Below, piece after piece: positions 3,737 to 22,775 of a stretch of DNA of 64,000 nt. The notes under the pieces are model-generated. The model saw nothing but the letters and a program-made list of their open reading frames with translations, was not told where the DNA came from and ran no database searches. Made by a program: the position numbers and the translations under genes. Each line of letters opens with the position of its first letter. Within the stretch, counting starts at the first letter, position 1. Source of the DNA: Gemmatimonadaceae bacterium (GTDB lineage Bacteria > Gemmatimonadota > Gemmatimonadetes > Gemmatimonadales > Gemmatimonadaceae); the NCBI GenBank assembly GCA_016742275.1, contig JACVCD010000010.1, forward strand, positions 145,258-209,257, given 5' to 3'.

Positions 3737-6139
3737 GTGAAGCGCTCGCTACTCCTCTTTGCATTTCTCACGGCCGCGCCGCCATTGTCAGCGCAGGACT
3801 CGTTGCCTTCCACGCGCCATGAGCGCGTGGCTGGTTATGTGCGCAGCGTCGCATCGGGCGAGGTATTGCGCGGCGCGGTCATTCGCGTGGACGCCGATGC
3901 ACAGGTGCGTCAGACCAATGAAGAGGGCTTCTACGCCCTCGTACTGCCCGCAGGTACGCATCGCTTGCGCGTGCGCGTGATTGGGTACGCGCCACTCGAC
4001 ACCAACATCGTGGTGAATGCGCGACTCGATCTCACACTCCGACTGCGCGCGCTTGAAACCGTGTTGCAAGCGGTACAGGTGCAGGCCAAGCGCGAAGAAC
4101 GGGCTGATCTCGATCCGGCAGCGCCACAAATGAGCGTCGTGCGCATTGACATGACCGCAGCCAAGGCGGTTCCTCCAGTGCTCGGCGAAGTGGATCCGCT
4201 GCGCACGCTCACGTTGCTGCCGGGTGTGGCCACCACATCCGATGCCTCCAATGCCTTTTCAGTACGAGGCGGCAGCACCGATCAGAATCTCATCCTGCTC
4301 GATGAGTCCACGATCTACAATCCATCGCACATCCTCGGCTTTCTCTCCACGTTCAATGCCGACGCGATCGACAACGTGACGTTGTACAAGGGCGGCATTC
4401 CGGCACGATTTGGCGGGCGATTGTCGTCGGTGGTGGACATCCGGCAGCGTGATGGCAACCGCGAAGAGTTTGCCGGCACGGCGTCCATCGGCCTGCTCTC
4501 GAGCAAACTGCTGGTGGAGGGGCCGGTGCCGGGCAAACGCGGCTCCTACATGCTGGCCGCACGACGCTCGTATGCGGATGCCTTTATCCCATTGGCGAGC
4601 GACACCACCATCCGTGATAACCGCGCGTACTTCTACGACCTGAATGCCAAGGCCCAGGTCAACATCGGATCAACTGGCGCGGTGATCGCCTCTGGCTTCA
4701 TGGGCCGCGATCTGTTCGCGCTGCCAAGCGCCGGCTTCGGCGCCGGTTGGGGCAATCGAGCCACCGCACTCCGCTGGAATCAGGCAGTAGGTGGGCGACT
4801 CTTCTCGAAAATCTCCGGTACGTGGAGCGACTACGACTACAAGCTGGGTTTCCGCGCAGAACCGGATGACTCGGCCAGTTGGGTCGCAGGAATCGTAAGC
4901 GCGGAGTTGCGCATCGATGAGACGTGGCAGATGACGGCCAATCAGCGACTCAGTGTTGGCGGCGAGTTCTCGCGCAATCTCTTCCGTCCCGGTCGATTGA
5001 GCCCGGTTGGCGATACGGCGGGGTCCAGCTTGCGCACGCGCGAAGTGGAGCGACGCATTGGCATCACCCGCGCCGCATTCATGAACTGGGAGATGGATGT
5101 TGGCACGCGACTCGGGCTGCAAGCTGGCCTGCGTTACGCGGACTTTGCTCGTGTGGGCGAAGGGACGCTGTACCGGTACGCGAACGAGGCGCCAGTCGTA
5201 TGGAACGCGGCGCTGGATCGGTACGAGCCTGGCGTACTGGTGGACAGCAGTCGTGTGTCGCGTGGCACGCGCATGGCGTACTTCGATGGCTTCGAGCCGC
5301 GCGCCACAGCGCGTTTCTCACTCACGCCGCGACACAGTCTCAAGGCCAGTTACGCACGAACACAGCAATTCCTGCAACTCGCGTCGAACACGAATTCGCC
5401 AACACCGCTGGATGTGTGGGAGCCGGCCGGGCCGTTCATTCGCCCGCAGGTGGCCGACCAGTATGCGTTCGGTTGGACGGGACAGTATCGCGGCGTGGAG
5501 TTCACGGCCGAGACGTACTTTCGGCGTGCAGAGAACGTGGTGGACTACATCAGTGGCGTGGATGTGTTTCTGAATCCGCGCCTCGAGACAATGCTCGTGC
5601 AGGGAGAAGGACGCGCCTACGGCCTTGAGCTGTTTGCGCGACGCGCCGAGGGACGCTTCACCGGTTGGGCGAGCTATACGTTGGCACGAGCCGAACAGCG
5701 ATTCCCGGCGGCGGGCACCACGAATGGTGGCATCAGTGGTGGGCGCTGGTATGTGTCGCCCTTTGACAAGACCCACAACCTGTCGCTGGTGGGCAGCTGG
5801 TTGTGGACCCCCAAGTGGCGCGTTGGCTCAACGTTCATGCTCGCGTCGGGTCTCCCCGCTACGCTGCCGCGTGCACGCTACTGGGTGGATGGTTTTCTCG
5901 TGGCGGAGTATGGCGATCGCAACTCTTCGCGCCTGCCGCTCTATCACCGCCTCGACCTGAGCCTCACGCGACAGTTCCGTCGGAGTGAACTGCAGTTTGG
6001 CCTGGTCAACGCTTACAACCGCTTCAATGCGCAATCGCTGCGTGTGGAGCAGCGCAACGACAATCCGCTGGTCGCTGATGCGGTCCAGACGTCGATCTTT
6101 GGCATCATTCCGAGTCTGAACTATGCCTTCCGTTTCTGA
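3737..6139 (+). CDS. TonB-dependent receptor with N-terminal carboxypeptidase-regulatory domain
   Basis: The 800-residue product has a signal peptide (residues 1-20), then a CarboxypepD_reg-like beta-sandwich (about 27-115, ending in LRVRVIGYAPLDT). A TonB plug follows (about 125-235, with FSVRGGSTDQNLILLDE), and then a long barrel ending in the aromatic FRF typical of outer-membrane proteins. It should import a ligand across the outer membrane using TonB energy; no separate TonB box can be fixed. The start is GTG at 3737, where the signal peptide begins. The DUF4249 lipoprotein downstream overlaps its 3' end or abuts it, a pairing common in such loci. The substrate is unknown. Confidence 0.9.
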   Translation: MKRSLLLFAFLTAAPPLSAQDSLPSTRHERVAGYVRSVASGEVLRGAVIRVDADAQVRQTNEEGFYALVLPAGTHRLRVRVIGYAPLDTNIVVNARLDLTLRLRALETVLQAVQVQAKREERADLDPAAPQMSVVRIDMTAAKAVPPVLGEVDPLRTLTLLPGVATTSDASNAFSVRGGSTDQNLILLDESTIYNPSHILGFLSTFNADAIDNVTLYKGGIPARFGGRLSSVVDIRQRDGNREEFAGTASIGLLSSKLLVEGPVPGKRGSYMLAARRSYADAFIPLASDTTIRDNRAYFYDLNAKAQVNIGSTGAVIASGFMGRDLFALPSAGFGAGWGNRATALRWNQAVGGRLFSKISGTWSDYDYKLGFRAEPDDSASWVAGIVSAELRIDETWQMTANQRLSVGGEFSRNLFRPGRLSPVGDTAGSSLRTREVERRIGITRAAFMNWEMDVGTRLGLQAGLRYADFARVGEGTLYRYANEAPVVWNAALDRYEPGVLVDSSRVSRGTRMAYFDGFEPRATARFSLTPRHSLKASYARTQQFLQLASNTNSPTPLDVWEPAGPFIRPQVADQYAFGWTGQYRGVEFTAETYFRRAENVVDYISGVDVFLNPRLETMLVQGEGRAYGLELFARRAEGRFTGWASYTLARAEQRFPAAGTTNGGISGGRWYVSPFDKTHNLSLVGSWLWTPKWRVGSTFMLASGLPATLPRARYWVDGFLVAEYGDRNSSRLPLYHRLDLSLTRQFRRSELQFGLVNAYNRFNAQSLRVEQRNDNPLVADAVQTSIFGIIPSLNYAFRF

Positions 6140-6140
6140 G

Positions 6141-7034
6141 ATGCATACGCATCTGCGTGCACGTGTGATGATGCTTGGCGCTTCGCTGCTGCTGTCGATG
6201 GGCTGCGAGCGGGTGGTGGATATCACGGTACCTACGATGGCCACACGACTGGTGGTGAGTGGGCGTCTTGAACTGGTGCGTGGTTCGTCGAATGGCGCGC
6301 CGTCCGGTCGACAGGTCATTACGCTGACCACCACCGCTCCGTACTTCCAACCGGCCGGTCCGCCACCAGCGCGCGGCGCCGAGGTGCGCGTCACGGACAG
6401 TCGCGGAGTTGTGACGCTCTTCCGCGAGCAGGCGAACGCACCGGGCGTGTATGTCACCGACAGTCTCATTCCCGTGCTCAATCGACGGTACACACTGCGC
6501 GTGCGGTGGAACAATGACACGTACGAAGGCAGTGACTCGCTGCTGCCGGTGGCACCGATCGATTCGTTCTATTTCCGCGAGCGTACGGGGTTGTTCGCGC
6601 CACCTGATGTTGCGCGCGAGCCGGGGCCGCGGGCGACGATCGATTTCCGAGATCCGCCCGGCGTGGAGAACTACTACGTGTGGGATCAGTTCGTGGACGG
6701 TCAGCGATTGGTGGAAGCTGATACCGCATTCCGTTTCCGCCCCATGGAGCGCGACGCGTTTTTCAATGGCGCGCTCGTGCGTGGTTTCCAGCCGTACTCT
6801 GGCATCGTACTGCGTTCGGGTCAGACCGTACGCATACGGCACATGTCGCTCAGCGAACAGGGATATCGCTTCTACCTCACACTCAACAACGCGTCGATGT
6901 CGGACGGCTCACCGTTCTCGGTGCCACCGGCCAGTCTGCGTGGCAATGTTTCCAATCTCACCCGCCCGGCGGAGCCGGCGTTGGGGTACTTCCTGACGGC
7001 GGAGGTGGATGAGAGGATGGGGAAGGTGCCGTAG
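6141..7034 (+). CDS. DUF4249-like lipoprotein partner of the TonB receptor
   Basis: The product is about 297 residues and starts MHTHLRARVMMLGASLLLSMGC, a lipoprotein signal with the lipobox LSMGC. The body has the beta-rich layout of DUF4249 proteins (VDITVP near the N-terminus, VTDSRGVVTLF, and an RYTLRVRW strand). DUF4249 proteins normally follow TonB-dependent receptors and probably act at the outer membrane, though their activity is unknown. The ATG at 6141 lies just after the receptor stop; an alternative ATG at 6123 would overlap it by 17 bp. Family assignment is by pattern only. Confidence 0.7.
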   Translation: MHTHLRARVMMLGASLLLSMGCERVVDITVPTMATRLVVSGRLELVRGSSNGAPSGRQVITLTTTAPYFQPAGPPPARGAEVRVTDSRGVVTLFREQANAPGVYVTDSLIPVLNRRYTLRVRWNNDTYEGSDSLLPVAPIDSFYFRERTGLFAPPDVAREPGPRATIDFRDPPGVENYYVWDQFVDGQRLVEADTAFRFRPMERDAFFNGALVRGFQPYSGIVLRSGQTVRIRHMSLSEQGYRFYLTLNNASMSDGSPFSVPPASLRGNVSNLTRPAEPALGYFLTAEVDERMGKVP

Positions 7035-7249
7035 TCTGTGCGTCACCTCCTTTCCCTTCCCGCTGAGATATTGATCTCGCCGCCAATGTTGGCCAACCGG
7101 CCGGCGGCTCCAGACAGCACGTACGGTCCCGGGTAGTAGCACGCCGGCAGTTGCGCGCACGCGCAGTTTTCGCCTTGGATCAACAAGGGGCGTTCTCCGC
7201 ATTCTGCTCGCTGAGCGAATCGTGTATCCGCTGGCGGGAACCGAGTCTG

Positions 7250-8026
7250 TCAGATCAGATTTGCGCGACGTTGAGCACTGCAAAGCGTGTGGACCACGCT
7301 CACATCCACGCCCGACGGAGAGAGCATCGCAGCAAGGTCCCGCAGCATGGCGATGCTACGGGTGCGGCCATCGCAGGTGAGCGCTTCGGAGAGAAACACT
7401 GCACGCGAGGTCAGCGGGGTCAGTGCGGAGTCGCGTGCGTCCCGATGGTTGAACGACCAGCAGATCACGGAGCTGCCTGCGGCATAGACCACCACATCTT
7501 TAGTCAGCGGCATGTCCTCTATCTTGCCGCTCAGCGGCAGGAACTTGTCCGTCGCGGGTGAGGCAAGGCGAAGGGTGATCTGAGTCGTCTCGAGCCGATC
7601 GAGATCATAGCCCCCGGCCGGTGCGAGGTGCTTCGTCGAGAGTGCGCAGTACAGATTCACAGCTCGGACCGGCGTCTGCACCGGTCCTTCTCGGAGTAGA
7701 CGACGGCACAGTGCCTCTACGCTCGATTTGTACGTCGATGGCTTCAGTCCGGAACACTTCGTCGCCACACGCCACGGCTTCAAAACGTCGTGTTCAGCTA
7801 ACGTCTCAAGCTTGACGTGCTGCTCGGCGAGCGACGCGCGCGCATCGCTCCATGTCGCGTCGATACGCCCGTCGTCGAGACCGCTCATCATCGCGCTGAG
7901 GTTAGTGACCAATACGGCACTCACGCTAACGTACGGAAAACGCTCGATCACGTCTTGGGCAATCTCGATTGTCGGAGGTGCCGAATCGCCGACGCCGTCC
8001 AACACGCCCCCTTGACTCTTCCACAC
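7250..8026 (-). CDS. Stand-alone B3/B4 tRNA-binding (PheRS-beta editing-like) domain protein
   Basis: Residues ~90-240 match the B3/B4 domain of phenylalanyl-tRNA synthetase beta as seen in free-standing proteins. They show SSVEALCRRLLREG, the NLYCALSTKHLAPAGGYDLD core, and the VICWSFNHRDARDSALT strand. In PheRS this domain clears misacylated tRNA; free-standing versions are thought to act on tRNA or amino acids. The start is GTG at 8026, preceded by GGAGGTG embedded in the end of the upstream desaturase gene, whose stop is 1 bp away, so the two form an operon. The link with a RelA-like tRNA-sensing protein across the divergent promoter is suggestive. Substrate unknown. Confidence 0.68.
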   Translation of the reverse strand: MWKSQGGVLDGVGDSAPPTIEIAQDVIERFPYVSVSAVLVTNLSAMMSGLDDGRIDATWSDARASLAEQHVKLETLAEHDVLKPWRVATKCSGLKPSTYKSSVEALCRRLLREGPVQTPVRAVNLYCALSTKHLAPAGGYDLDRLETTQITLRLASPATDKFLPLSGKIEDMPLTKDVVVYAAGSSVICWSFNHRDARDSALTPLTSRAVFLSEALTCDGRTRSIAMLRDLAAMLSPSGVDVSVVHTLCSAQRRANLI

Positions 8027-8027
8027 T

Positions 8028-9770
8028 TTACACCTCCAGATTCGAGTCGGATCTCACTGCAGTGGAGGGCTCCTCCTGCATGGCGTGCTCGATCGCCGGG
8101 TTCACCGCTGACCGGTGACGACGGGACCGGACTTCGGCGGCCTTCGCGGGCATAGCCGGGTTCTCGAACACCCCGCGACGCGTGCGGCCGGCGGCGTAAT
8201 TCGGATCGTTGGCGAACAGCCACCGATGGGCGGCGCGCGCTTGATGGTGCACAATCCATGGTGCCACATGATGGAGGAAATGGTAGGCATCCCCGTTCGG
8301 ATGAAGCAGCCAGTGGATTGGTCCGATGTTGCTGAACGTGCCGTCACGTGTCGTCGTCCCGTTCGCGTAGTCGTGCTTCGCCGCCTCGGCGATGAAGCGA
8401 AGCACCGGCAGCACGACTACGAAGCCTATTACGACGTAGCGCAGCCAAAGTCCGATCGATATGGAGAGCGCGGAGCCGACCGAGGACGTTACGGCAGCAA
8501 ACTCGAGCACGAACGCGCCCGGCACGATGAACACGACGATGTGCCACGCGAGTGCGGTGATGAGGAGCTTAGAGTTGCTCCCGACGAGCCGCCACCAGCT
8601 CTCCATGTACGTGCCCATGACCCGCGCCATCTCCTTCGCGTAGCGCCACACAGAACCGCGGTCGAGTTTTGCCCAGAGGACTTGGAACCGGCGCTGGCAG
8701 GGATCTTCGTCATCACCCAGGTGCTCATGATGCACCTGGTGCGATGCCCGGAACGCCTTGACGGTTTGGATGACTGGAGTCGCCGCGAGGTAGTCTGCGA
8801 TCCGGTCGTTAAGCGGCTTATCGCGCGTCCAATTGTAGTGAGCGGCCTCGTGCACCAACGCCTCGAGCGCGCGGAACTGGCGAGCGACGAGGAGCAGCGT
8901 CACCGGATAACCGATCATCCAGACCGCCAGGGCGAAGGGCGCGTTCGACGCCCCCTCGGCGAGCAGCCAGTGCACGGCCACGAGCAACGGGATCGCGCCG
9001 ATGTCGCAAAGTGCGACGGCGATGCTGCGCCAGAGGTTGGCGTTTCCCCACTGCTTCCTCAAGTTCTTTTCGATGCCCGCCGGCAGACGATAGTCGAGAT
9101 CGAATTGCGTCGGTCGACGGGTCGACTCCTTCGCCTCCTCGGACGCCGCCGGAGCGCGGTTCGCCCCACGCTTGAGATTCCACGTGCGCGCCTCGCCGTC
9201 GGCGCGGAGAGGAAGGGTCGCACGGCTGGGAGCACCGGCGATCAGAGTCGGTCCGCGCGACGCACGCGCGAAGCGCCATGCGTGAGCCGGCAAAAACAGG
9301 CTGCCCTCAGCGTTGATCGCGCCCGCGCAAAGAATCGGCTGCACCGTGAAGATGCTGCCGCCGCTGAGCAACACCGACGGGAGCATACCCGCGACGTGGG
9401 TTCGCACCGCCGCGACGCCATTGGTCGCCGGTGTCGCGGTGGCAAGCACGTGACCGGCGATCATTGCGAGGCCCCCGCGTTTCCCCGCAGAGCCGGGAAC
9501 GATCTCGCCGACGACGAGGAACTCACCGTCGGATCCAACGAACTCGCCGCGCTCGAACATAGCGCCGAGCGCCTCGCTGTCCGCAAACCCTTCCGTCAAA
9601 GACGCGGCCATGACTAGAAGAAAATCGACGGGCATCCCGGTGCCCTGATCTGGGCGCGTCGTTGCCAATCGGCGGAGCACGTCGGCGGCCAGAGGGTAGT
9701 CCTGGGCATCAACCGCTTCCTGCAGGTCGAGAAGGAGAGGGAACTGCTGGCCAAGCGCGGTGGCACGCAT
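8028..9770 (-). CDS. Membrane fatty-acid desaturase fused to an unrecognised N-terminal domain
   Basis: The C-terminal ~360 residues carry the three histidine boxes of di-iron membrane desaturases or hydroxylases: HEAAH (about 307-311), HQVHH (344-348) and HFLHH (497-501). Hydrophobic membrane pairs separate them. Such enzymes use O2 to desaturate or hydroxylate acyl chains. The first ~215 residues form a soluble domain I do not recognise (segments GMPVDFLLVMAASLTEGF, EFLVVGEIVPGSAGKRGG). The ATG at 9770 is preferred because GAGG lies 5 nt upstream; a TTG at 9806 would add 12 residues. It precedes the B3/B4 gene by 1 bp and is divergent from the RelA-like gene. Confidence 0.8.
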   Translation of the reverse strand: MRATALGQQFPLLLDLQEAVDAQDYPLAADVLRRLATTRPDQGTGMPVDFLLVMAASLTEGFADSEALGAMFERGEFVGSDGEFLVVGEIVPGSAGKRGGLAMIAGHVLATATPATNGVAAVRTHVAGMLPSVLLSGGSIFTVQPILCAGAINAEGSLFLPAHAWRFARASRGPTLIAGAPSRATLPLRADGEARTWNLKRGANRAPAASEEAKESTRRPTQFDLDYRLPAGIEKNLRKQWGNANLWRSIAVALCDIGAIPLLVAVHWLLAEGASNAPFALAVWMIGYPVTLLLVARQFRALEALVHEAAHYNWTRDKPLNDRIADYLAATPVIQTVKAFRASHQVHHEHLGDDEDPCQRRFQVLWAKLDRGSVWRYAKEMARVMGTYMESWWRLVGSNSKLLITALAWHIVVFIVPGAFVLEFAAVTSSVGSALSISIGLWLRYVVIGFVVVLPVLRFIAEAAKHDYANGTTTRDGTFSNIGPIHWLLHPNGDAYHFLHHVAPWIVHHQARAAHRWLFANDPNYAAGRTRRGVFENPAMPAKAAEVRSRRHRSAVNPAIEHAMQEEPSTAVRSDSNLEV

Positions 9771-9862
9771 CGCGACCTCGGGGTGGGAGGGCGTATCGTC
9801 CAACAATGGGAATGTCCCGCAAACACAGCAAGCACCATGAATGTTCTACTATAACACCAAAC

Positions 9863-9899
9863 ATGACCTTGTTGGTCATTTCATGGTCTTAAAAAAGAC
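9863..9899. promoter_or_regulatory. Two adjacent inverted repeats in AT-rich divergent promoter region
   Basis: ATGACC-N5-GGTCAT occupies 9863-9879 and GTCTT-AAAA-AAGAC occupies 9886-9899. Both sit in the AT-rich stretch between the divergent desaturase and RelA-like genes. They could be operator sites for the winged-helix ATPase of this locus or short hairpins. Nothing but symmetry and position supports this. Confidence 0.35.
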
Positions 9900-9992
9900 T
9901 ACACTAGGACATGTATTTGCGCAACCCTATTAAATCTGGTGGCCTAAATCGGTATAAAACTCCTTTCGGTGACTATCTGATGTACATTTTGC

Positions 9993-10016
9993 GACGATTC
10001 CGAGATCATAATCGTC
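9993..10016. promoter_or_regulatory. Perfect 7-bp inverted repeat upstream of the leader ORF
   Basis: GACGATT (9993-9999) and AATCGTC (10010-10016) are perfect inverted arms with a 10-nt gap. Flanking bases ATCTGA (9976-9981) and TCAGAT (10015-10020) can extend the pairing around a bulge. The element lies 51 bp before the leader ORF start, so it could be an operator or a 5' leader hairpin. Confidence 0.4.
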
Positions 10017-10067
10017 AGATATGATCCAATTTCCCTTTCGAATCTGGATTTTTGAGGTGAAACGCAG

Positions 10068-10136
10068 ATGAGCTTTGATTCCTTAGGTGCTAGCGGGCCG
10101 GTTCGTTCCACAACACCAAGCCGGGCGGTTCGATGA
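10068..10136 (+). CDS. 22-residue leader ORF translationally coupled to the RelA-like ATPase gene
   Basis: An ATG at 10068 follows GAGGTG with an 8-nt gap and opens 22 codons starting MSFDSLGASG, with five serines. Its TGA (10134-10136) overlaps the ATG of the next gene (10133) as ATGA, so ribosomes finishing it could restart on the large gene. The large gene has no comparable ribosome-binding site outside this ORF. Because the downstream product carries a tRNA/ribosome-sensing module, a leader-peptide control step is attractive. That is inference; the ORF could also be chance. Confidence 0.45.
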   Translation: MSFDSLGASGPVRSTTPSRAVR

Positions 10137-12385
10137 TCACGGTTAAGACACCGAAGGGCGACGAGCGCAAGCTGAAGGCCGGGTCGACTGTTCTTGAGTT
10201 CGCTGAGCAACTCCATTCGAACATCCTCCTGCACGCGATCGGAGCGCGGATTCTCCGAGAAGGCGCAACCACCCCTCACCGTGTCGGCCTCTTACATGGG
10301 CTTCGAGACGGCGATACCGTCGAGATCGAGATGGCGATGACGCCGCAACCGATCCGTCACGACATCGCCATGCGCATGACAGCGAGGTCGCGCCGCAGCT
10401 TGCGCGCCGCTTATCGCGAGGCTGCCTCGCGCCGCGGGAGGGCGTATCTGCAGCGCCGTCTGATCGAGGCGGGAATCTGGCCGGTCCAGGATCAAGATGC
10501 GCTCGATGAGATCGTGCAGGATTCGCTCGCACACGCGCGCGCGCGTAATCGGTTGCGCCGCGAGATCGTCACGATCGAGGACTTCTATCAGGAGCTATAC
10601 GACTATTTTCACGGTCGACCGGTACCGGGGCGCCTGCAGCCACATCGCATCGAGCACATGCTGCGACTAGTCTTCGAACGGAGCGCACTCCCTATTGCTC
10701 GGGCCGCGTTCGGCCGTCTCGCGGCCGAAGTGCAACTCATGAAACATTGTCGAGTATGCGCTGGCACCACTCTCGTGGCGCCGCTATTCGAGCTCCGAAA
10801 CGACGGGATCGTCTGCCACGATCAACGTCATCCATGCGCGGAAGCAAAAGCCGCCGACTGCTATCCACTGCCTCCGCACAATGCGCAGTACTTTTTTATT
10901 GAGGCGAGCGACCGTAGTGGGTTGGTCGCCGACGTGGGAGACGTATTCGAGGAGGCCGATGTTCAGCTAGACGAGCTCCTCGCGCGCGTGATCGGGCGTC
11001 GGACAGCCGCGATTCGTGCACGGGTCGAGCCAAGTTCGCAGGAGACGATTAACCGCGTGGGGATATTGCTACGTCAAGTGCACGGCGTTGATCCTGAAGG
11101 AGTCTTTGGCCCGGAGGATCCGATATCCGCTACGGAAGCACTTCATTTCGACCCACGTCAACTCGCACGTGAGGTGCGCAAATCGTTCCCGATTGCTCCG
11201 TACGATGTTGGCGAGCGCATTCGGCGTGAAGAACGGCTATACGGCCGTGATGACGAACTCTCGGACTTGTGCCGTCGCATCGAGGCGTCAATCAACTTCG
11301 ACGAGCCAGAAGATGGGTCCATTTTCATCCACGGTCCGTTCAAGATCGGAAAATCCTCGCTTGTTTCGACCGCGCTTGCCGTCATCCGACGGACCCACTC
11401 TGGCTCTCTTGTATCAACGCACCTCGATGCGGTACGCGGTGAGCCATGGACGCAGTATTTCGAGCGTGTGTTGGACGATCTTTGGGTGCAGGCAGCACCA
11501 TTACTCGATGCAGCGCCGGGTGAAAATTGGCGCAATATGCTCGAGACTTGGGGTGTAAAGGATGGCTCACGCGCGGCCGCGCTGCTGCACCTCACTCGCA
11601 CGATCATAGATCATCGCGTCCCCGTCGTTATTGCGATCGACGAAGTGGTATGGCTGCTTCTCAAGATCAGCACGGACCCCCAAGCTTCTGCAGTTTGTGC
11701 ACAAGCGTTAAATATGCTGCGCGATCAGCGCGGCGTATCATTGGTTCTGGTAGGGCCCGACCTGATCGGACTGGATATGGATCATAACGTTAGTACCGTG
11801 ATACGCACATCACGAAAGATGGAAGTCAAATCGCTGACTCGCGACAGGTGCGTAGAATTGCTTCTTGCCCAGAAATCTCGCTTGCCCATCGAGGCTGAGG
11901 ATGCAGTACAGACCGCCGTCTTTCACGAGACGCTCGGTCGGCCTTACTGGACTCAACTGATTGCGAGCGAGGTTTGGAACGATGTTGTGGCGACTGCTGA
12001 CGGGACTTGGCACGCAGGTGCGATCCGATATACTGCTGAAGCATTTTCGCGTGCACGAGATAAGGTGAGTAAGCTCGTGCTCCCCTTCGAGCAGCAATAC
12101 CGTCCGTTTCTTGACGGCAAACAAGCGAAACTGACTCGAGCGGCCCTTCAGCTGTTCGTCGACGACGTACGATCGGACAAGCATGAGGGCATGACGCTCA
12201 TCGAGATTCAAGAACGCCTCGGAACGGTTTTTCCGAACATATCAAGTGAATTTCCCCGATGGCTTCAGGATATGGAAGCCGTCGGTACGCTTGTTCGTTT
12301 CCACGCGTCTGAGACTTGGCATATGGCTCCAATCCTAGCGAGACACTTGGACACGAACGGCATCTTAAACGGCCCTCTATCATGA
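10133..12385 (+). CDS. RelA/SpoT-type regulatory half (TGS-helical-Cys-ACT) fused to a STAND-like ATPase
   Basis: Residues 1-66 are a TGS domain (TPKGDERKLKAGSTVLEF ... GLRDGDTVEIEM). Residues ~80-190 match the RelA helical domain (TARSRRSLRAAYREAASRRG). Residues 205-243 are a Cys/His cluster (Cys206, 209, 228, 235, 243) in the position of the RelA zinc-finger/CC domain, and 252-318 are an ACT domain (FFIEASDRSGLVADVGDVF). The HD hydrolase and ppGpp synthetase domains are absent. Instead an NTPase follows: the entry motif YGRDDEL (370-376), Walker A GPFKIGKSS (401-409), Walker B VVIAIDE (498-504), and a probable winged helix at the C-terminus. In RelA these regulatory domains bind deacyl-tRNA on the ribosome. 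A tRNA- or starvation-gated ATPase is therefore inferred. The gene overlaps the next one by 4 bp (ATGA). Confidence 0.82.
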   Translation: MITVKTPKGDERKLKAGSTVLEFAEQLHSNILLHAIGARILREGATTPHRVGLLHGLRDGDTVEIEMAMTPQPIRHDIAMRMTARSRRSLRAAYREAASRRGRAYLQRRLIEAGIWPVQDQDALDEIVQDSLAHARARNRLRREIVTIEDFYQELYDYFHGRPVPGRLQPHRIEHMLRLVFERSALPIARAAFGRLAAEVQLMKHCRVCAGTTLVAPLFELRNDGIVCHDQRHPCAEAKAADCYPLPPHNAQYFFIEASDRSGLVADVGDVFEEADVQLDELLARVIGRRTAAIRARVEPSSQETINRVGILLRQVHGVDPEGVFGPEDPISATEALHFDPRQLAREVRKSFPIAPYDVGERIRREERLYGRDDELSDLCRRIEASINFDEPEDGSIFIHGPFKIGKSSLVSTALAVIRRTHSGSLVSTHLDAVRGEPWTQYFERVLDDLWVQAAPLLDAAPGENWRNMLETWGVKDGSRAAALLHLTRTIIDHRVPVVIAIDEVVWLLLKISTDPQASAVCAQALNMLRDQRGVSLVLVGPDLIGLDMDHNVSTVIRTSRKMEVKSLTRDRCVELLLAQKSRLPIEAEDAVQTAVFHETLGRPYWTQLIASEVWNDVVATADGTWHAGAIRYTAEAFSRARDKVSKLVLPFEQQYRPFLDGKQAKLTRAALQLFVDDVRSDKHEGMTLIEIQERLGTVFPNISSEFPRWLQDMEAVGTLVRFHASETWHMAPILARHLDTNGILNGPLS

Positions 12386-13848
12386 ACACTGCTGTCACGG
12401 GGTTGCCTGACTACCGACCGACTGGAGCCGATGCGCTCTTTCGTCCGCTTTTTGTCAGTAGCATCGAACCTCGTATGGACCGTGCGGTATTGATACTCCG
12501 CGCTCCCCGTGCGTGTGGGAAGACCGAGTTAGTCGAGATTATCACGGAACGACTCGCAATTCCGCCAGAACACATTATCGACGGAAAGGCTCACGACGCG
12601 GCACAAGCGCTCATCGATCTTCAGAAGGCAATTCGCTCGACACCGGACTCCTCAATATCTCGCCTCGTAATCGATGATGCCGATGAACTCATTCTCAGGA
12701 ACCCCGTCGACAGCGAGCGTGGCGAAGGGCTGAGGACAGCGTTCGAGACGTTGATTTCCGACGCCAACGCATCCAAACCGAGAGTCCGATTAGTCTTGAC
12801 GATCACGCTCCCTCCCGAGCGGATCAACGAGCCAAGTCAGCTTATTTCAGATGTGCTGCGGACGACCCCAATCGAGCCCACAGCGCTTCCCGAAGCAATT
12901 TGGCGCGCCGCTCTTCAGGTAGCGGTCGCGGAGGTCGTTCACGATGGGCAGCATCAGACATGGCGGGATAAATCGCTCGCGGAATCTCTGTTTCAGTTGA
13001 GTGGTGGCCACCCATCTCTGATGGTCGCTGGACTCGACGCACTCGGCGCGCTCTTCGGCGTGCAGGCCGATCCCGAATTGGAGCGTCGTCGGGAGGATGA
13101 TGATTTCGTTCGCGGAGTCGTCACTGCCGCGATGCGCTACGACGGTGGCCGGCCAATCCGGAAGCAAATCCTGCGAATGCGTGACGTGAACAGCCAAGAG
13201 GAAGCAGCACTAGTTGAGAGCGCATTCGATGCACTCAAGTCGCAACTCGACGTAGCAGGCCATGATTTCTTTACACTCCCTGTTCCTCAAGGGGAACTGT
13301 TGCTCGCGGCTGGGCTCATTCGGCTCGTCGACCCAAGACTTCCAGGTACATTCGCGTTATGGGGTGGGCAGTTCGTCGAAGTGGTACGGACCGCTCTTGC
13401 AGCTCCCGCACAGCACACTTTCGACTCGTCCTCAGACGGAAGGAATTCAACCATTCGTTCCACAGATACCGAGGCTCCTAAGTTCGTCGAGCCTCGCCCC
13501 CTTCCGGGCTCAAGACGCGGAGAGCTGCGTCTCGTAAGCCCAGACGGTGAGCAGCCGACCGCGAATCTCACGCCGCAGTCATGGCTTATCGCAAGCGAAA
13601 TTATTAAGGCGAACGGTGGCGTTATCAGCGTCAAGCGTATCTGTGACTTGCTCTTTCCTGAGACAAGTGAAGGTGAGGAAGAGCAGTCGACAACGGCCCA
13701 GAACATGAGCAAGACGATGACCGCGATCCAGCGGATGCTCAAGGAGATCGCCCGCACGACGGAGAGGCCGATCGTGAATGTTCGAGGCGAAGGGTACCGG
13801 TTCGATCGGGAGCACTATCAGCTGCGCGGACTCGTCAATCAAGAGTGA
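12382..13848 (+). CDS. AAA/STAND-like ATPase with C-terminal OmpR-type winged helix
   Basis: The 488-residue product has Walker A RAPRACGKTE (about 40-49) and Walker B RLVIDDADE (about 94-102). A helical region follows with a STAND-like sensor segment (LFQLSGGHPSLMVAGLDAL). A ~95-residue C-terminal winged helix ends in NVRGEGYRFD, the OmpR/PhoB transcriptional signature. No receiver domain is present. The ATG at 12382 overlaps the previous stop as ATGA. It probably works with the RelA-like ATPase, perhaps as the DNA-binding output, and could act on the palindromes at 9.86-10.02 kb. Exact function unknown. Confidence 0.78.
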   Translation: MNTAVTGLPDYRPTGADALFRPLFVSSIEPRMDRAVLILRAPRACGKTELVEIITERLAIPPEHIIDGKAHDAAQALIDLQKAIRSTPDSSISRLVIDDADELILRNPVDSERGEGLRTAFETLISDANASKPRVRLVLTITLPPERINEPSQLISDVLRTTPIEPTALPEAIWRAALQVAVAEVVHDGQHQTWRDKSLAESLFQLSGGHPSLMVAGLDALGALFGVQADPELERRREDDDFVRGVVTAAMRYDGGRPIRKQILRMRDVNSQEEAALVESAFDALKSQLDVAGHDFFTLPVPQGELLLAAGLIRLVDPRLPGTFALWGGQFVEVVRTALAAPAQHTFDSSSDGRNSTIRSTDTEAPKFVEPRPLPGSRRGELRLVSPDGEQPTANLTPQSWLIASEIIKANGGVISVKRICDLLFPETSEGEEEQSTTAQNMSKTMTAIQRMLKEIARTTERPIVNVRGEGYRFDREHYQLRGLVNQE

Positions 13849-13862
13849 GAGAACGGTACAGA

Positions 13863-15143
13863 CCGGGTAGATCGGCAACAGAGTAGTCCAGCAGCATGGG
13901 TAACAGTTGCCCCATAGCGTGCACAGCGAGCCCCCTTTCTGCGAGGTCGCTGATGCCTTGGGCAGAGATTGGCCCGATGGAAGCCCGCCTGCAGTTTGTG
14001 CGGGACGCGTTGAGTGATCGTTTCACGATGAGCGAGCTCTGCGCGCGCTATGGCGTGAGTCGACGGATCGGATACAAATGGCTCGCGCGGTACGAAGCGG
14101 AAGGGCGGCCCGGACTGCAGGATCGCAGTCGCGCCCCCATCAGTGTCCGCATCGTATTCCGCAGGCGGTCGAAGCCCTCCTCGTGCAGGAGCGACAGGCG
14201 CACCCGTTCTGGGGCGCACGGAAGCTGCTCAAGGTGCTCGCGACGCGCTTTCCGAAGATTCCGCGGTGGCCGGCGCCGAGCACCACCGCGGATCTACTCG
14301 CTCGTCATGGCTTGGTGCAAAAGCGTCGGCGGCGGCGCCTGTCGACCCATCCGGGGATTGTGCGACCGACCACCGCGGCACCGAATGATCTGTGGACCGC
14401 CGACTTCAAAGGGGAGTTTCGTACCGGGAATGGGTGGTACTGCTATCCGCTGACCATCGCCGATCAGCACACGCGCTTTCTCCTGGCGTGCCGTGGTTTG
14501 CTCTCGACCAAGACGGTCACCGCCAAGCCCGTGTTCGAGCGCGTGTTTCGCGAGTATGGCCCGCCCGTCGCGATACGCACGGACAACGGCGTCCCGTTCG
14601 CGACACAGGCGATTCACGCGCTCTCATACTTAAACGTGTGGTGGATGCAACTCGCCATCGGCCATCAACGCATTCACCCGGGTGTCCGCAGGAGAATGGT
14701 GCGCACGAGCGCATACATCGCACGCTCAAGCGCCAGGCCATCAAACCGGTGCGCGGGAACTGCGCGGCGCAGCAACGCAACTTTGATGCGTTCCAACGCG
14801 AGTACAACACCGAGCGACCGCATGAGCGACTCAACCAAGAAACGCCAGCCTCGCAGTACCACCCGTCGCCGAGATCCTATCCGGATCGTCTGCCGACTCC
14901 GGAATACCCGGGGCACTTCCTTGTCAAAAAGATCACAACCGGGGACGTTTCGCTTTCGCGATCGGCTGCTCTACCTCGCCAATACCATGGTCGATCAACA
15001 CATGGGATTGGAAGAAACGGACGATGGCATTTGGACGATCCACTTCAACACGGTCTTGCTCGCCGAGCGCGACTATCGCATCACGGGGTGACTGAAAAAG
15101 TGTTACCCATGTTGCTGGATTTTTCTGTTACCCATCATCCCGG
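13863..15143. mobile_element. IS481-family insertion sequence, decayed
   Basis: The element is bounded by imperfect inverted repeats of about 43 bp at 13863-13905 and 15101-15143. Their inner 19 bp match 18/19 (TCCAGCAGCATGGGTAACA at 13887-13905 against the complement of 15101-15119). It contains a frameshifted IS481-type transposase. The true ends could be closer in, at TGGGTAACA (13897) and TGTTACCCA (15101-15109). No clear target duplication was found. It separates the RelA-like locus from the cassette array, and its right end overlaps the 3' end of the HEPN-like gene at 15128. Confidence 0.8.
13953..15091 (+). pseudogene. IS481-family transposase with three frameshifts
   Basis: The N-terminal helix-turn-helix (FTMSELCARYGVSRRIGYKW) is in the first frame to ~14140. 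The integrase core continues in the second frame to ~14690 (DLWTADFKG, IRTDNGVPF), in the third frame to ~14941 (CPQENGAHERIHRTLKRQ), and back in the second frame to the stop at 15091. The D-D-E residues all survive, but in different frames. The first break falls at a run of five C (near 14135-14139). A single programmed shift is normal in some IS families, but three breaks point to decay or low-quality sequence. Confidence 0.85.
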
Positions 15144-15841
15144 CTGTTCACGGCGAGATCGGTAGCGGCAACCATCATGTCGCGCATTGCATCGGCGAGC
15201 CACGTTAGGAGCGCTCGAAACTCCGCCTCATCGCCGGCTAACGCGTTGTGACTCCAACGTTCCGCGAACGCCAGCAGTTGTGCTGGTGGTAGAGGAACGC
15301 CGGCCGATGCATAGACGATTCGCGGGATGTCTGAACGATGCGTCATCGTGTTTCGGAAGTCGGTCCAGAGCTCCCATTCTCCAGAATCAAGGCGAGCGCG
15401 GATCACATCCGTTAGCCGAGCATTCGGTAGTTCGGCCATCAGCTGATCGCGAAGCCATCTCAAGCTGCTTCGTCGTCGGTTTCCCTCGTCAAAAGCAAAT
15501 GCAGGGGGAGTGAGCACGGATAGAAGCGCGTGACAGGAATATGAGATCGTCTCAAGCGATGCGACCCCGCACGAGAACATGCCGTACAGGGCTCTCTCCC
15601 TTGCATACTGGGTTTCGAAACCGGCCTGGACGCCAACCGAACGCCATGAGTCCACGATCTCCGAAGCGTATTCCGCGCATGCGCGGAAACGCCAGCCGAT
15701 CAGGTTGCACGCACCGTTAAACTCGCGATGAGGCTCAGACGGCTGGGTAAGCCGCCTGCGCGCGGCTTCATAAAATTGGACAAACTCCGCTAGAGGGAAA
15801 TCCGGCGGCAGTTCCAACTGGTGAGGACTACTGAATGGCAC
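15128..15841 (-). CDS. HEPN-like cassette protein
   Basis: I do not recognise a named family for this 237-residue protein. It is mainly helical and carries DFRNTMTHRSD near residue 163, which fits the HEPN Rx4H motif (R-N-T-M-T-H) with Asn after Arg, as in HEPN ribonucleases. Its stop codon lies inside the right-hand inverted repeat of the IS481 element, so the natural C-terminus and any following attC site may have been lost. An attC site begins 28 bp upstream of its start, which makes it a cassette read on the minus strand. An RNase or toxin role is inferred only from the motif. Confidence 0.6.
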   Translation of the reverse strand: MPFSSPHQLELPPDFPLAEFVQFYEAARRRLTQPSEPHREFNGACNLIGWRFRACAEYASEIVDSWRSVGVQAGFETQYARERALYGMFSCGVASLETISYSCHALLSVLTPPAFAFDEGNRRRSSLRWLRDQLMAELPNARLTDVIRARLDSGEWELWTDFRNTMTHRSDIPRIVYASAGVPLPPAQLLAFAERWSHNALAGDEAEFRALLTWLADAMRDMMVAATDLAVNSRDDG

Positions 15842-15869
15842 GTCGGGTGTTCATTGTGGGTTGGTAGCT

Positions 15870-15979
15870 ACCTAACGCTCGCGTTCTGTTCCGCGCCCTC
15901 CAGTAGGTTGCGGCCAAGGGGCGGAGCGAGCAAGGCCGCAATCATTAACGGCGCTGTCAACAGCAACACACTGTTAAGC
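15870..15979 (-). other. Integron attC recombination site
   Basis: Read on the minus strand, the site begins GCTTAAC (R'' consensus RYYYAAC) and ends GTTAGGT (R' consensus GTTRRRY). Between them the arms pair imperfectly (TTGCTGTTGACAGCGCC against GGCGCGGAACAGAA), and an inner perfect 8-bp stem TTGCGGCC/GGCCGCAA closes the loop. Its 110-bp length equals that of the second site at 18424. It follows the gene at 16033 and precedes the gene ending at 15841, as expected between two cassettes. Confidence 0.8.
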
Positions 15980-16032
15980 AACACTGGCACACGACCGCCC
16001 GATCTAAGGAGAGAACGCCAGAACTCGTCGAC

Positions 16033-17298
16033 TTATCCTCGATCTGTCAGCGGTGCTATAGGTAGGCTCGCGAACTTGGCCAAAGGTGCGCTCGGAACTG
16101 TCTCGGGATCCTGCCGTCCCGCGAACGAGATTCGAACGTTACCCCAACTGCCCGAATGGTTCTCCACCTTCACAATGAGATTTCCCCAGTGCCTGCGTCG
16201 CTGCGCTCCAACGCCCTGCTCACTCTGCGGAGGAACCACGTCGACCTTGATCTCGGGTGGGACGATCGACGCCTTTAGCTGATCAACTGAGAGCCCGTGC
16301 AGAGTAACAGCGACGGTAACTTCGCCCTTCCCTTCCGGGAGGATGTACATGATTCTATCCAGCGAGGTTGCAGCATCACCGCGCACTTCCAAGACGTCAG
16401 CAATAGCCCGGATGAGCGCCCTGTGCAGTATCGGAACTATGTCCGGAAGGTGGACTCGCTCTTCATAGAAATGACCGGAGCCATGCTGCAGAGAGCGCCG
16501 AATGTTCCTCGCATGATTGGCGGTCTTCTTGTCGGAGCCAGCGAGCGTAACGACAGCGAAGGTAATTCCAGCAGATGAGCCGAAGACCTCCATTGGAGCA
16601 TTGCAGATGGCGCAGTGCCGTGCCACGAACTTTGTCGGAAGCGAGTACTTCTCGATGAGACGACCGTTGATGCTTTCGAGCCCCAGCCAGAGCTGAGAGA
16701 ACTGCTGCACGAGATCATCAGTAAGAGCAGCTTGCCGAGCATGCGCGATCGCTCGCGCGATCCTAGAGTCCTGCAGACTGTTTGTCCCCTCCGTCGCTCC
16801 TTTCAAAAAACTCCCGAAGAGCTCCTCGCTGACGATCCGCGGATTCGGAATAAGTGTTGGAATGTCTTCGAAAAACTGCGCGAGCTCTCTATCTTCTGAT
16901 CTCTCGTCCAGATCGATAGCCCAGAGCGAAGTCACGTGCCCAACGCCGGCTCCATGACTCGCGGAAAGAACGCCGCAGAAGTTCTCGATCGCGCTCCGAC
17001 CGCGCTCAACTGCTGTTTCAATGTCTTCAGCGTTCATCCAAGCCCTGAAATCAAGGCCAACGTGAGCGGTAGAGCTTCCGCTCGTCAGTTCACGGTTGCT
17101 CATCCAAATCTCGGCGCCGTCGTCGACCATCACAACTTTTATCCCACCTGTTGGAAATCTAAGAGGCGTCGGGACATTCGCGCGAATTAGATATCGCTTG
17201 TCATTCATCTGAGTTCGTCCAAAGCTGGGTGGCATAGCTGCAGGAGTTTGCTCGCTCTGCATGCGGAGGAAGAGGCGTACAGTCCGTGTGGGTACCAC
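16033..17298 (-). CDS. Large HEPN-like cassette protein of unknown function
   Basis: This protein is 421 residues from the GTG at 17298, or 391 from the ATG at 17208 (MNDKRYLIRANVP), which looks more natural though neither has a clear ribosome-binding site. It contains CAIC (a CxxC pair) near residue 235. It also has NIRRSLQHGSGHF, where R-R-S-L-Q-H-G fits the HEPN Rx4HG motif. The N-terminal third is beta-rich. It lies directly before an attC site, so it is part of a cassette, possibly together with the gene at 17392. Named family not recognised; a role in defence or toxicity is a guess from motif and context. Confidence 0.62.
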   Translation of the reverse strand: MVPTRTVRLFLRMQSEQTPAAMPPSFGRTQMNDKRYLIRANVPTPLRFPTGGIKVVMVDDGAEIWMSNRELTSGSSTAHVGLDFRAWMNAEDIETAVERGRSAIENFCGVLSASHGAGVGHVTSLWAIDLDERSEDRELAQFFEDIPTLIPNPRIVSEELFGSFLKGATEGTNSLQDSRIARAIAHARQAALTDDLVQQFSQLWLGLESINGRLIEKYSLPTKFVARHCAICNAPMEVFGSSAGITFAVVTLAGSDKKTANHARNIRRSLQHGSGHFYEERVHLPDIVPILHRALIRAIADVLEVRGDAATSLDRIMYILPEGKGEVTVAVTLHGLSVDQLKASIVPPEIKVDVVPPQSEQGVGAQRRRHWGNLIVKVENHSGSWGNVRISFAGRQDPETVPSAPLAKFASLPIAPLTDRG

Positions 17299-17391
17299 CT
17301 GAGTGAATGAATCTGCTTATGTTGCGCGACGACCGCACGAATGGTCCGCCTGATCACAATACGCAGGTCGCTGCGTCAGCAGCAAACTGGG

Positions 17392-18327
17392 TTAGAACGC
17401 TGCGTCGCTCACAAGTAGGATATCGGAGAGAAGCTTGCGCAGAGCGAACTCGAGATTGTTGCCAGCATCTACGAGCTCTCCTGCTTCGGGCGCACTGTCG
17501 CCATGCGTGATCTTGTTTCGCAGTTCATACGCCACATCGAACGCGTCGACTCCGACCTCCCCCGCAGCGAGACGCAAAGCGCTTCTGCATGCCGATCGGC
17601 TGCCTTCCGTCTTGAGCCCTCCGAATATGCTGCGAAGTCTGTTCAACTGTTCGGGTTCGAGCCCATCAGCATTGGCTTCCAAGAGGCCGATCGCCCGATC
17701 CAAGAAGGCCAGTTCCTTCTCGGGACGATCCGTCTTCTCGACCACCGCTTCAACCGCGGCGGTTAGGAGAAGTAGTCGAGCCATTGAAGAGTTCTCAGAA
17801 CGCGAACTTCCCCAGAGGTCAAAAGCAACTCGTGCGCGTGCCGCACCAAGGGCGGAGCGCGCCACGTTCTTCTCCGCGTGCTGTATGTACGGTTCGAACA
17901 GTGTACCGGTGCGCAGAAGCACGGGGCCAGCGCTGGCAAACCGTGTCGGTGTGCCAGCAGTGTATAGCGTTGTGCCAAGCTCGCCCTGCAGAACCGCGCT
18001 GTTGTGTTGCTGCGCAAACTGGTCGAGGGCAAATACGGTGAACTTTGTCTCAGGACGACGGGCGAAGAAGCTAACTGCGAATCCACGCTCCACAGAGACG
18101 GACATGAGGATCGCCTCGAGCGACTTTGCGCAGAGCTCGGCTTCCTCGCGCGTCTCAAAGGCTGGTGTTTTCACCGCGATTCGCTGCGAGACGTAGTCGC
18201 TCCCCTTGCCAATCTCCTTTATCTCGTATGGCTTACGCGTGTTGCTCAGATGGAACCGAGTGTCGCTCGCGATGCCTTTGATTTGATGGCCTACTTCGAC
18301 GTCAAACACGATACGCGCACGAAGCAT
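17392..18327 (-). CDS. HEPN-like cassette protein of unknown function
   Basis: The 311-residue product has an N-terminal half without recognisable motifs and a helical C-terminal half. That half ends in AYELRNKITHGDSAPEAGELV, where R-N-K-I-T-H-G is a good HEPN Rx4HG match. The start at 18327 lies 96 bp from the attC site at 18424-18533, so it opens a cassette. A possible degenerate attC lies in the 93 bp between this gene and the next, with the motif TTCTAAC at its stop codon and a partial stem, but no proper second core. Function unknown; the similarity of its C-terminus to its neighbour's is limited to the motif. Confidence 0.65.
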   Translation of the reverse strand: MLRARIVFDVEVGHQIKGIASDTRFHLSNTRKPYEIKEIGKGSDYVSQRIAVKTPAFETREEAELCAKSLEAILMSVSVERGFAVSFFARRPETKFTVFALDQFAQQHNSAVLQGELGTTLYTAGTPTRFASAGPVLLRTGTLFEPYIQHAEKNVARSALGAARARVAFDLWGSSRSENSSMARLLLLTAAVEAVVEKTDRPEKELAFLDRAIGLLEANADGLEPEQLNRLRSIFGGLKTEGSRSACRSALRLAAGEVGVDAFDVAYELRNKITHGDSAPEAGELVDAGNNLEFALRKLLSDILLVSDAAF

Positions 18328-18423
18328 TTTCGCTCCTCAACTCCTGCTGTAACACGCTGCGCCTGCGAAGCGGAGGGCCGGCTCCGCAGGCACGAAACGG
18401 CTTTGCGCTGCCGCGCGACTGCG

Positions 18424-18533
18424 GCCTAACGCTGAAGTTCAGCAGCGGCGGCAGTCAACAAGTTGCGGCAGGTGGGCGCAGCCCGCCAGCCGCAGTCCTA
18501 AGTGCCGCCGTCGGCTGCAACGCACGTTAGGGC
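18424..18533 (-). other. Integron attC recombination site
   Basis: On the minus strand the site starts GCCCTAAC and ends GTTAGGC, matching the R'' and R' core boxes. The arms CAGCCGACGGCGGCA and TGCCGCCGCTGCTG pair with a bulge, and an inner stem TGCGGC/GCCGCA is present. The first core contains the TAA stop of the gene at 18527, a typical cassette arrangement. Its 110-bp length matches the other site in this array. Confidence 0.85.
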
Positions 18534-19009
18534 TCACGGGTACGCAGTCGACTGAAGTCTGCAGCGAGATACTTTTCCCACTGCGGCTTGCAGTACTCTT
18601 CTGTTACTCCAGTTACCTTGTTCTTTCGAGCGCCGTTAAACCAAACACTTCGCTTACCGGCGTTCTTTCCGTTCTTGTTCTGCACAGCGTTGGCGACGAA
18701 CTCCGCAGAGGACATGATCCAAGTGAGGTCAAGCCGTTCGGAGTAGAAGATGAACCAATAGTCCTCACGATGTTCGTGCTCGATGGCTGCAAATAGTGCT
18801 GCATCCCGATCGACAACTGCGCGCGACCTTGCTTTGATTTGCACAAGTGCGATGGTTCCATCGTCTCGACGGACAATTGCGTCGACGGCGTGATCATCGA
18901 CGAGCGGGATGTATACATCCATCCCCTCCTTGAGCATCCTACCAATTATCCAGTACTCGATACGCTTTCCGAATCCTGCAGAGTGTCGGAAGGTGCCAGG
19001 CAAGGTCAT
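18527..19009 (-). CDS. PD-(D/E)XK nuclease-like cassette protein
   Basis: The 160-residue product contains DDHAVDAIVRRDDGTIALVQIKARS (residues ~38-62). This fits the PD-(D/E)XK core: an acidic residue on one strand (VDAIV), then the Q-x-K strand (LVQIKA). The upstream helix FGKRIEYWIIGRMLKEG corresponds to the usual first helix. Related proteins are restriction-like or intron-associated nucleases. Its stop lies in the attC site and its start is 23 bp from another core site, so it is a compact one-gene cassette. Nuclease activity is inferred. Confidence 0.7.
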   Translation of the reverse strand: MTLPGTFRHSAGFGKRIEYWIIGRMLKEGMDVYIPLVDDHAVDAIVRRDDGTIALVQIKARSRAVVDRDAALFAAIEHEHREDYWFIFYSERLDLTWIMSSAEFVANAVQNKNGKNAGKRSVWFNGARKNKVTGVTEEYCKPQWEKYLAADFSRLRTREP

Positions 19010-19032
19010 GAGTATCGAAAATGATGTAGGTA

Positions 19033-19040
19033 GCCCTAAC
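19033..19040 (-). other. Integron core site at the 5' boundary of the cassette array
   Basis: GCCCTAAC on the plus strand is GTTAGGGC on the minus strand, the cleavage core of attC or attI. It lies 24 bp before the start of the first cassette gene. A partner core is doubtful: CTTAGGC at 19168-19174 has one mismatch, and no convincing paired stem joins the two. The site may be attI or the remnant of a damaged attC. No integrase gene is present in the following sequence. Confidence 0.5.
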
Positions 19041-19336
19041 GCTTATTAGCCCGCGTGCGATCACTACAGCCAACTGTTTATACCGCTGATTTTCGCAGCA
19101 TAACAATCCGGCAATACGCGGCAGTTCAGTACACCATCCAATTGCACAGCCAGAACTTACGGCGCACTTAGGCCCAATCGCCAGCCCGCGTTCTCCTGCG
19201 CTTATCGCGCTATATCACGCCGGTCGCCAGAGAGAGTCACGGAAGGACATGGCCCGCTGCCAACGCGTCGTCCAATTGACTCCGATCGCGCCATTACAGA
19301 CCCGCAGCCACCCCGCGCACCAGGCTATCTTTCAGT
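19041..19336. other. Gap of about 300 bp with no gene recognised
   Basis: This stretch lies between the array boundary and the alpha/beta hydrolase gene. It has no plausible coding frame, no integron integrase and no clear terminator. It is the place where an attI site and integrase promoter would be expected if the integron were complete. Only the weak core-like CTTAGGC at 19168 was noted. Confidence 0.6.
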
Positions 19337-20281: not shown

Positions 20282-20298
20282 CGCCCGAAGCCTTCGCA

Positions 20299-21147: not shown

Positions 21148-21173
21148 TCTGCCTCGCGGGACAGCGGCGCGAT

Positions 21174-21965: not shown

Positions 21966-22025
21966 CGTCGTTTTTCGGGCTCGTGTTGACGGCCATCAAC
22001 ATTGCCTGTTGACAGCCGAGAAACT

Positions 22026-22062
22026 GTGTATATGATACACATTAACTGTGTACCACATACAC
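22026..22062. promoter_or_regulatory. Twin palindromic operators for the divergent TetR
   Basis: GTGTATATGATACAC (22026-22040) is a palindrome around its central base. GTGTACCACATACAC (22048-22062) repeats the same GTGTA-N5-TACAC arms. The centres are 22 bp apart, two helical turns. They lie 61 bp before the TetR start and 61 bp before the barrel gene start, a classic divergent-operator position. Confidence 0.78.
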
Positions 22063-22122
22063 TAATACCTGGTGCATGCCTTTTGAAGGGCGCACTCGGT
22101 TCCATCCACGAGGAATACTACG

Positions 22123-22728: not shown

Positions 22729-22775
22729 TGCGCGGTCAATCGGGCGTCGCCACATCCATTGCTCGAGAATCACCC

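Follow-up and report, generated by a model that had tools for sequence, protein, structure and literature searches.

Closest described systems

The closest described case to the gene studied here is that of the vWA-MoxR (VMAP) ternary conflict systems, in which, according to the accessible part of the report on them, TGS domains and STAND ATPases also occur (PMC7159879). The gene, P0001, lies in a 64,000-nucleotide stretch of DNA (the window) from a Gemmatimonadaceae bacterium (assembly GCA_016742275.1, contig JACVCD010000010.1, positions 145,258 to 209,257 of the forward strand) and overlaps a second gene, P0002. What appears to be new here is a predicted STAND ATPase that carries a RelA regulatory half as its N-terminal module. 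The fusion in P0001 is genuine and has been preserved across deep divergence. The accessible text on the vWA-MoxR systems mentions the TGS domain alone and not a four-domain RelA half (PMC7159879), and no Pfam match to vWA or MoxR was obtained in P0001, P0002 or eight other neighbouring open reading frames (ORFs; 10 scanned). A literature search covering largely titles and abstract openings, with subscription literature mostly outside it, returned no description of the RelA-half/STAND architecture, and a search for C-terminal RelA fusions returned nothing useful.

P0001 resembles the C-terminal half of the long RSH enzymes (RelA, SpoT and Rel) in the order of its TGS, helical, zinc and ACT domains, in the histidine that contacts the CCA end of tRNA and in the residues of the zinc site. 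Unlike these enzymes, it contains neither a hydrolase nor a synthetase domain and no RelA_AH_RIS match. Its regulatory half is N-terminal and the ATPase follows the ACT domain at the point where RelA ends, whereas the output domains of RelA precede TGS. With the STAND/NLR ATPases (the archaeal 2qen/2fna type, CED-4, Apaf-1 and the plant resistosomes) P0001 shares a predicted order of nucleotide-binding domain (NBD), helical domain and winged helix with intact Walker A and B motifs, but it differs from them in having a RelA regulatory half as the N-terminal module and no C-terminal repeat sensor.

The RelA-like half of P0001

P0001 occupies 10133-12385 on the + strand, as do all features below unless another strand is given, and encodes 750 amino acids. 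The initial annotation had the feature start at 10068, which is the ATG of another, out-of-frame ORF; the coding sequence of P0001 begins at 10133. The reading frame opens at the TGS domain (residues 2-65, 10136..10327; Pfam TGS, E 2.8e-12). This is followed by a helical domain (residues 71-196, 10343..10720) that was placed by profile alignment, contains a long helix at residues 84-112 in the predicted secondary structure and is the weakest match to RelA. A zinc-finger-like domain (residues 197-246, 10721..10870) with C206, C209, H229 and C235 and an ACT/RRM-like domain (residues 252-326, 10886..11110) complete the half. The latter was placed by profile alignment together with Pfam ACT_4 matches that are below the cut-off both for whole P0001 (E 7e-4) and for the isolated ACT stretch (E 5.9e-5, 24.1 bits against a cut-off of 27). 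Pfam gave no match in P0001 to the HD hydrolase or the ppGpp synthetase domain. The NCBIfam model spoT_relA aligned its positions 363-661, the regulatory half only, with residues 2-298 of P0001 at 25.4 bits, far below the cut-off of 499 bits that is set for the whole enzyme.

Profile comparison with RelA, which the initial annotation had named as a possible refutation, placed all four domains in order. The three-member family (P0001 and its relatives P0003 and P0004, described below) aligned with 87 RSH C-terminal halves at a probability of 99.7% over 308 collinear columns, the E-value being that of a single comparison and the RSH set having been picked by TGS similarity. Residues 2-326 of P0001 are collinear with the TGS, helical, zinc and ACT domains of RelA. 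The proposed RelA placement of the TGS, zinc and ACT domains is thus borne out by their sequence, by profile comparison and by predicted structure, and the helical stretch between them, without a RelA_AH_RIS match, is the least certain part. Structure comparison of the P0001 fold model, which was built on an alignment including 30 RSH proteins, also returned RelA-like matches at low template modelling (TM) scores; with the whole model no RelA chain was found in the best 50 rows, all of which were filled by one domain.

Several residues that serve tRNA binding in RelA have been retained. P7, K8 and H28 of P0001 align with E. coli RelA P411, K412 and H432, and these columns read P, K and H in P0001 and P0003 and A, R and H in P0004. 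In E. coli RelA, the accessible part of a structural report describes H432 as intercalated between A/R-tRNA nucleotides C74 and C75, with P411/K412 contacting A76 (PMC4974054). Among 33 aligned proteins (three family members and 30 RSH proteins) only T6, A24, H28, P73, C206, H229 and C235, in P0001 numbering, are invariant. C206, C209, H229 and C235 are invariant among the three members; in a region of uncertain alignment, the P0004 cysteine aligns with RelA C612 and not C613. Conservation reaches 93% or more of the 30 RSH proteins in 29 columns; 10 of these are kept by all three members, five by two, seven by one and seven by none. The RelA cysteine aligned with C235, Cys638 in E. coli, has been proposed in the accessible portion of another study to form an inter-subunit disulfide in the RelA dimer (PMC7669825), so the zinc site is not the sole reading of this cysteine. 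Judged from the alignment, the kept CCA-contact histidine and zinc-site residues would be compatible with sensing of tRNA or the ribosome.

The predicted STAND ATPase half

Residues 354-750 (11192..12382) are predicted by structure comparison to form a STAND/NLR-type module of NBD, helical domain and winged helix. They carry a Walker A motif, GPFKIGKS, at residues 401-408 (11333..11356) and a Walker B motif, VVIAIDE, at residues 498-504 (11624..11644), which agrees with the earlier claim that Walker motifs stand in place of the synthetase and hydrolase, no enzymatic RSH domain having been matched. Pfam AAA_16 matched residues 368-508 above its cut-off (E 1.7e-8), and AAA_22 was below threshold. 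At residues 602-606 the family has G-[RH]-P-Y-W, with G602 and P604 invariant in the three members, and this we take to be the GxP motif of the STAND helical domain. Sequence, profile and predicted structure together support the STAND ATPase reading of this part of the protein. In STAND NTPases, C-terminal superstructure-forming sensor repeats are common, though not universal, and the effector is usually N-terminal and the sensing part C-terminal. No C-terminal sensor repeats were found in P0001, which ends with the winged helix at residue 750 according to predicted secondary structure and structure comparison. The linker behind the ACT domain, at residues about 331-364, is of low confidence in the model.

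Relatives and distribution

A search of 5.8 billion proteins, from which 7993 candidates were scored, yielded two full-length relatives, P0003 and P0004, which cover 99% and 87% of the query length with 35% and 27% identity. The same domain order, for which the initial annotation had proposed a database search, is therefore present elsewhere, and the three members, at 28-37% identity, all retain the fusion. No additional fusion came from a profile search, whose other 88 matches all carried the synthetase domain PF04607. In a tree with 47 RSH halves (45 of the 87, the host's and that of E. coli), the three fusions formed one group with 100/100 support, on long branches. The host also has a long RSH gene of its own, complete with HD, synthetase, TGS, AH_RIS and ACT domains. 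Since a complete enzyme is present elsewhere in the genome, P0001 is no replacement for it.

Two trivial origins were considered and rejected. A chance or artefactual fusion is ruled out by P0003 and P0004, which share the architecture with the identities and query coverage given above. A degraded RelA is ruled out by the complete RSH of the host and by the grouping of P0001 with the other fusions and not with RSH halves, long branches being noted.

The fusion is rare among related genomes. In the phylum, 347 of 395 genomes matched the profile at E 1e-5 and one contained the fusion; outside the window's own genome the best E was 2.5e-15, from RSH-type partial matches at the TGS end. At E 1e-20, one of 179 genomes of the family matched. 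The STAND half alone matched two of the 395 phylum genomes at E 1e-6, the other match (E 5.2e-8) being a 382-amino-acid ORF that on visual inspection looks like an ordinary ATPase with no RelA half. A search of genome contigs with the alignment of the STAND part gave 51 pattern stretches, none confirmed, and a GxPYW DNA pattern gave no matches there. Viral contigs gave four stretches, none of them confirmed, and phages a single match to TGS only. Among plasmids, the STAND part alone matched four Leptolyngbya records at 23%, and P0003 had no match. The named rows from a library of viral folds were mostly generic AAA-type ATPases and clamp loaders, and many rows were unnamed.

The second gene, P0002

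P0002 (12382..13848) encodes 488 amino acids and is read as a second P-loop ATPase from its motifs and a Pfam AAA match below the cut-off (18.1 bits against 21.2). The motifs are a Walker-A-like APRACGKT and LVIDD. A 488-codon open frame would arise by chance at the base composition of P0002 with a probability of about 2e-8. Residues 394-474 (13561..13803) probably form an OmpR-type winged helix, Trans_reg_C being the sole Pfam match to the isolated end of the protein. NCBIfam returned four rows for this end, namely the regulators HilA, PhoP and ArcA (E 0.015-0.063) and one rifampin monooxygenase, and a PDB sequence search gave four weak rows, none of OmpR type. The initial description of P0002 as a second ATPase with an OmpR-type end thus holds for the Walker-like motifs, while AAA and Trans_reg_C both remain below their cut-offs. 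P0001 and P0002 have no detectable similarity to each other. The 4-bp overlap of the two genes that had been described is present as an ATGA at 12382..12385, and the overlap of the P0002 start with the P0001 stop suggests joint expression.

Possible roles of the fusion

On balance we tentatively favour a reading, somewhat short of evenly probable, in which P0001 binds deacylated A-site tRNA on starved ribosomes, its ATPase signals in place of ppGpp and P0002 relays the signal to transcription. By analogy with RelA, the TGS domain would grip the CCA end of the A-site tRNA. This grip may free or order the ATPase, which the linker at about 331-364 joins to the ACT domain, and nucleotide exchange and self-assembly might then follow, as in other STAND proteins. 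The adjacent P0002, with its probable OmpR-type DNA-binding end, would turn that state into transcription. This sensing role is preferred to the use of the RelA half as an effector, considered below, on two grounds: no other part of P0001 is recognised as a sensor, and all three members retain the histidine that contacts tRNA. An unlikely though conceivable further step is that the protein is a ribosome-monitoring receptor of immune type, in which an NLR-like STAND ATPase with a tRNA-reading RelA half detects ribosomes that are starved or depleted of tRNA, for instance when a phage attacks translation, and signals independently of ppGpp by way of the coupled DNA-binding ATPase. If P0001 is a sensor, it would provide a second bacterial route from uncharged A-site tRNA to a response, bypassing ppGpp and using an NLR-type switch; ribosome state would be a new kind of trigger for STAND proteins; and the RelA regulatory half would be shown to be a portable module.

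A number of observations weigh against this sensing role. The usual STAND order, with the effector N-terminal and sensing C-terminal, is opposite to the order proposed. Within the RelA half, Pfam RelA_AH_RIS matched neither P0001 nor, with E values up to 10 allowed, the isolated stretch of residues 71-246; its match to the RSH of the host has E 1.4e-20. The helical domain is poorly aligned past residue 120, and the stretch from the helical to the zinc domain is the least certain. Seven of the 29 columns conserved in RelA are kept by none of the three members. The zinc-site spacing is C-x2-C and H-x5-C in P0001 versus CC and H-x3-C in E. coli RelA, and the column of RelA Arg629, which lies near the A-site finger, reads R, gap and P where the alignment is uncertain. 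The P0001 ACT domain has a net charge of -5 against +0.8 (standard deviation (sd) 2.5) in 47 RSH proteins, and residues 1-330 have net charges of 1, 1 and 0 in the three members against 5.3 (sd 5.4) in RSH. The RelA-like fold matches are not independent evidence, because the alignment behind the model held 30 RSH proteins. For the proposed relay, Trans_reg_C scored 13.6 bits on whole P0002 and 17.7 bits (E 0.0037) on the isolated end against a cut-off of 26.2, and P0002 alone was predicted at a predicted local distance difference test (pLDDT) value of 35.6. The search for the second ATPase in other genomes, which had been proposed as a check, gave no convincing relative: the protein search returned only P0002 itself, the 395 phylum genomes only one 19.7-bit partial match besides itself, and plasmids one weak match at E 0.5.

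The chief competing reading is the opposite use of the RelA half, in which another trigger switches the STAND ATPase on and the assembled RelA-type halves fill the ribosomal A site and stop translation, with dormancy or abortive infection as the outcome. Such a role is in keeping with the generally N-terminal position of STAND effectors and with the sporadic occurrence of the gene (one of 395 phylum and one of 179 family genomes) in a stretch without a counterpart in the flanks taken from seven relatives, as for a conflict gene. The accessible part of a study of E. coli RelA also reports that its C-terminal half at high level inhibits protein synthesis, likely via the A site and independently of native RelA, but that the C-terminal domain at low level is non-inhibitory (PMC6719525). 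A further point against an effector is that neither a C-terminal repeat nor any other region recognised as a sensor is present in P0001. PADLOC-DB (library dated 2023; six proteins scanned) gave only weak matches, at E 0.011 for P0001, E 0.056 for P0002 and E 0.0078 for the best of the six. This use of the half is regarded as possible but doubtful; if true, P0001 would be a natural inhibitor using the translation block known, from the accessible text, for the overexpressed RelA fragment (PMC6719525). Distinctly more improbable is that the half is a generic RNA-binding or dimerising adaptor that has lost A-site tRNA reading and serves some other stimulus. The loss of seven of 29 columns in all three members, the missing RelA_AH_RIS match and the acidic P0001 ACT domain are consistent with it, as are the mention of TGS as an RNA-binding module of vWA-MoxR conflict systems in the accessible text (PMC7159879) and the disulfide proposed, likewise in a partly accessible source, for the RelA cysteine aligned with C235 (PMC7669825). 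Against an adaptor, the four-domain order, the CCA-contact histidine and the zinc-site residues have been kept across deep divergence.

It is also rather unlikely that P0001 and P0002 are chance neighbours, a stand-alone switch beside an unrelated or host-specific regulator; this estimate concerns the partnership only and is compatible with the other readings. The protein search found no P0002 relative, though the two P0001 relatives sit on contigs of 30.7 and 32.8 kb, and the single 19.7-bit partial match in the phylum genomes points the same way. The ATGA overlap speaks against chance. The protein search is moreover weak here, both P0001 relatives sharing four of 100 words with P0001 under even sampling, so a P0002 relative could be missed.

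Genomic setting and expression signals

The ORF that starts at 10068 is a possible, unproven leader of 22 codons (10068..10136), MSFDSLGASGPVRSTTPSRAVR. It is out of frame with P0001, and its TGA overlaps the P0001 ATG in an ATGA-type overlap like that between P0001 and P0002. The stretch upstream of the leader, with GAGGTG, pairs with the anti-Shine-Dalgarno sequence at -6.9 kcal/mol and that upstream of P0001 at -6.4, the 5th percentile of random 17-mers being -6.6. Because the two score alike, Shine-Dalgarno strength is not decisive on translation of the leader. The ORF could encode a leader peptide for translational coupling with P0001. No known RNA elements were found at gathering thresholds in window positions 5000-25000, and promoter- or terminator-like sites near P0001 and P0002 were not above those in shuffled sequences.

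Flanking DNA that adjoins the same core genes in seven relatives, about 17 kb from each except one with about 3 kb, was compared with the window. Positions 19337-21147 are conserved in all seven. No gene tested in 3737-19009 has a counterpart in these flanks, nor does any DNA left of 19337, which places the P0001/P0002 pair in a variable region (3737-19337). This region also contains two proteins of no recognised family, at 15128-15841 and 17392-18327 (both - strand), with R-N-x3-H stretches, RNTMTH and RNKITH, that resemble the HEPN nuclease motif; neither protein gave a Pfam match at E up to 10. A 160-residue protein at 18527-19009 (- strand) has a weak, below-cut-off match to PDDEXK nucleases (E 0.0011). 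As context outside the system, an insertion sequence (IS) element at 13863..15143 begins 14 bases past the P0002 stop and has 46-nt imperfect inverted repeats (80% complementary) and an rve transposase (E 5.1e-10). The last codons of the convergent gene at 15128-15841 lie inside the IS element, and for an 86-base stretch at the IS end there is a 91% match at another place in the genome.

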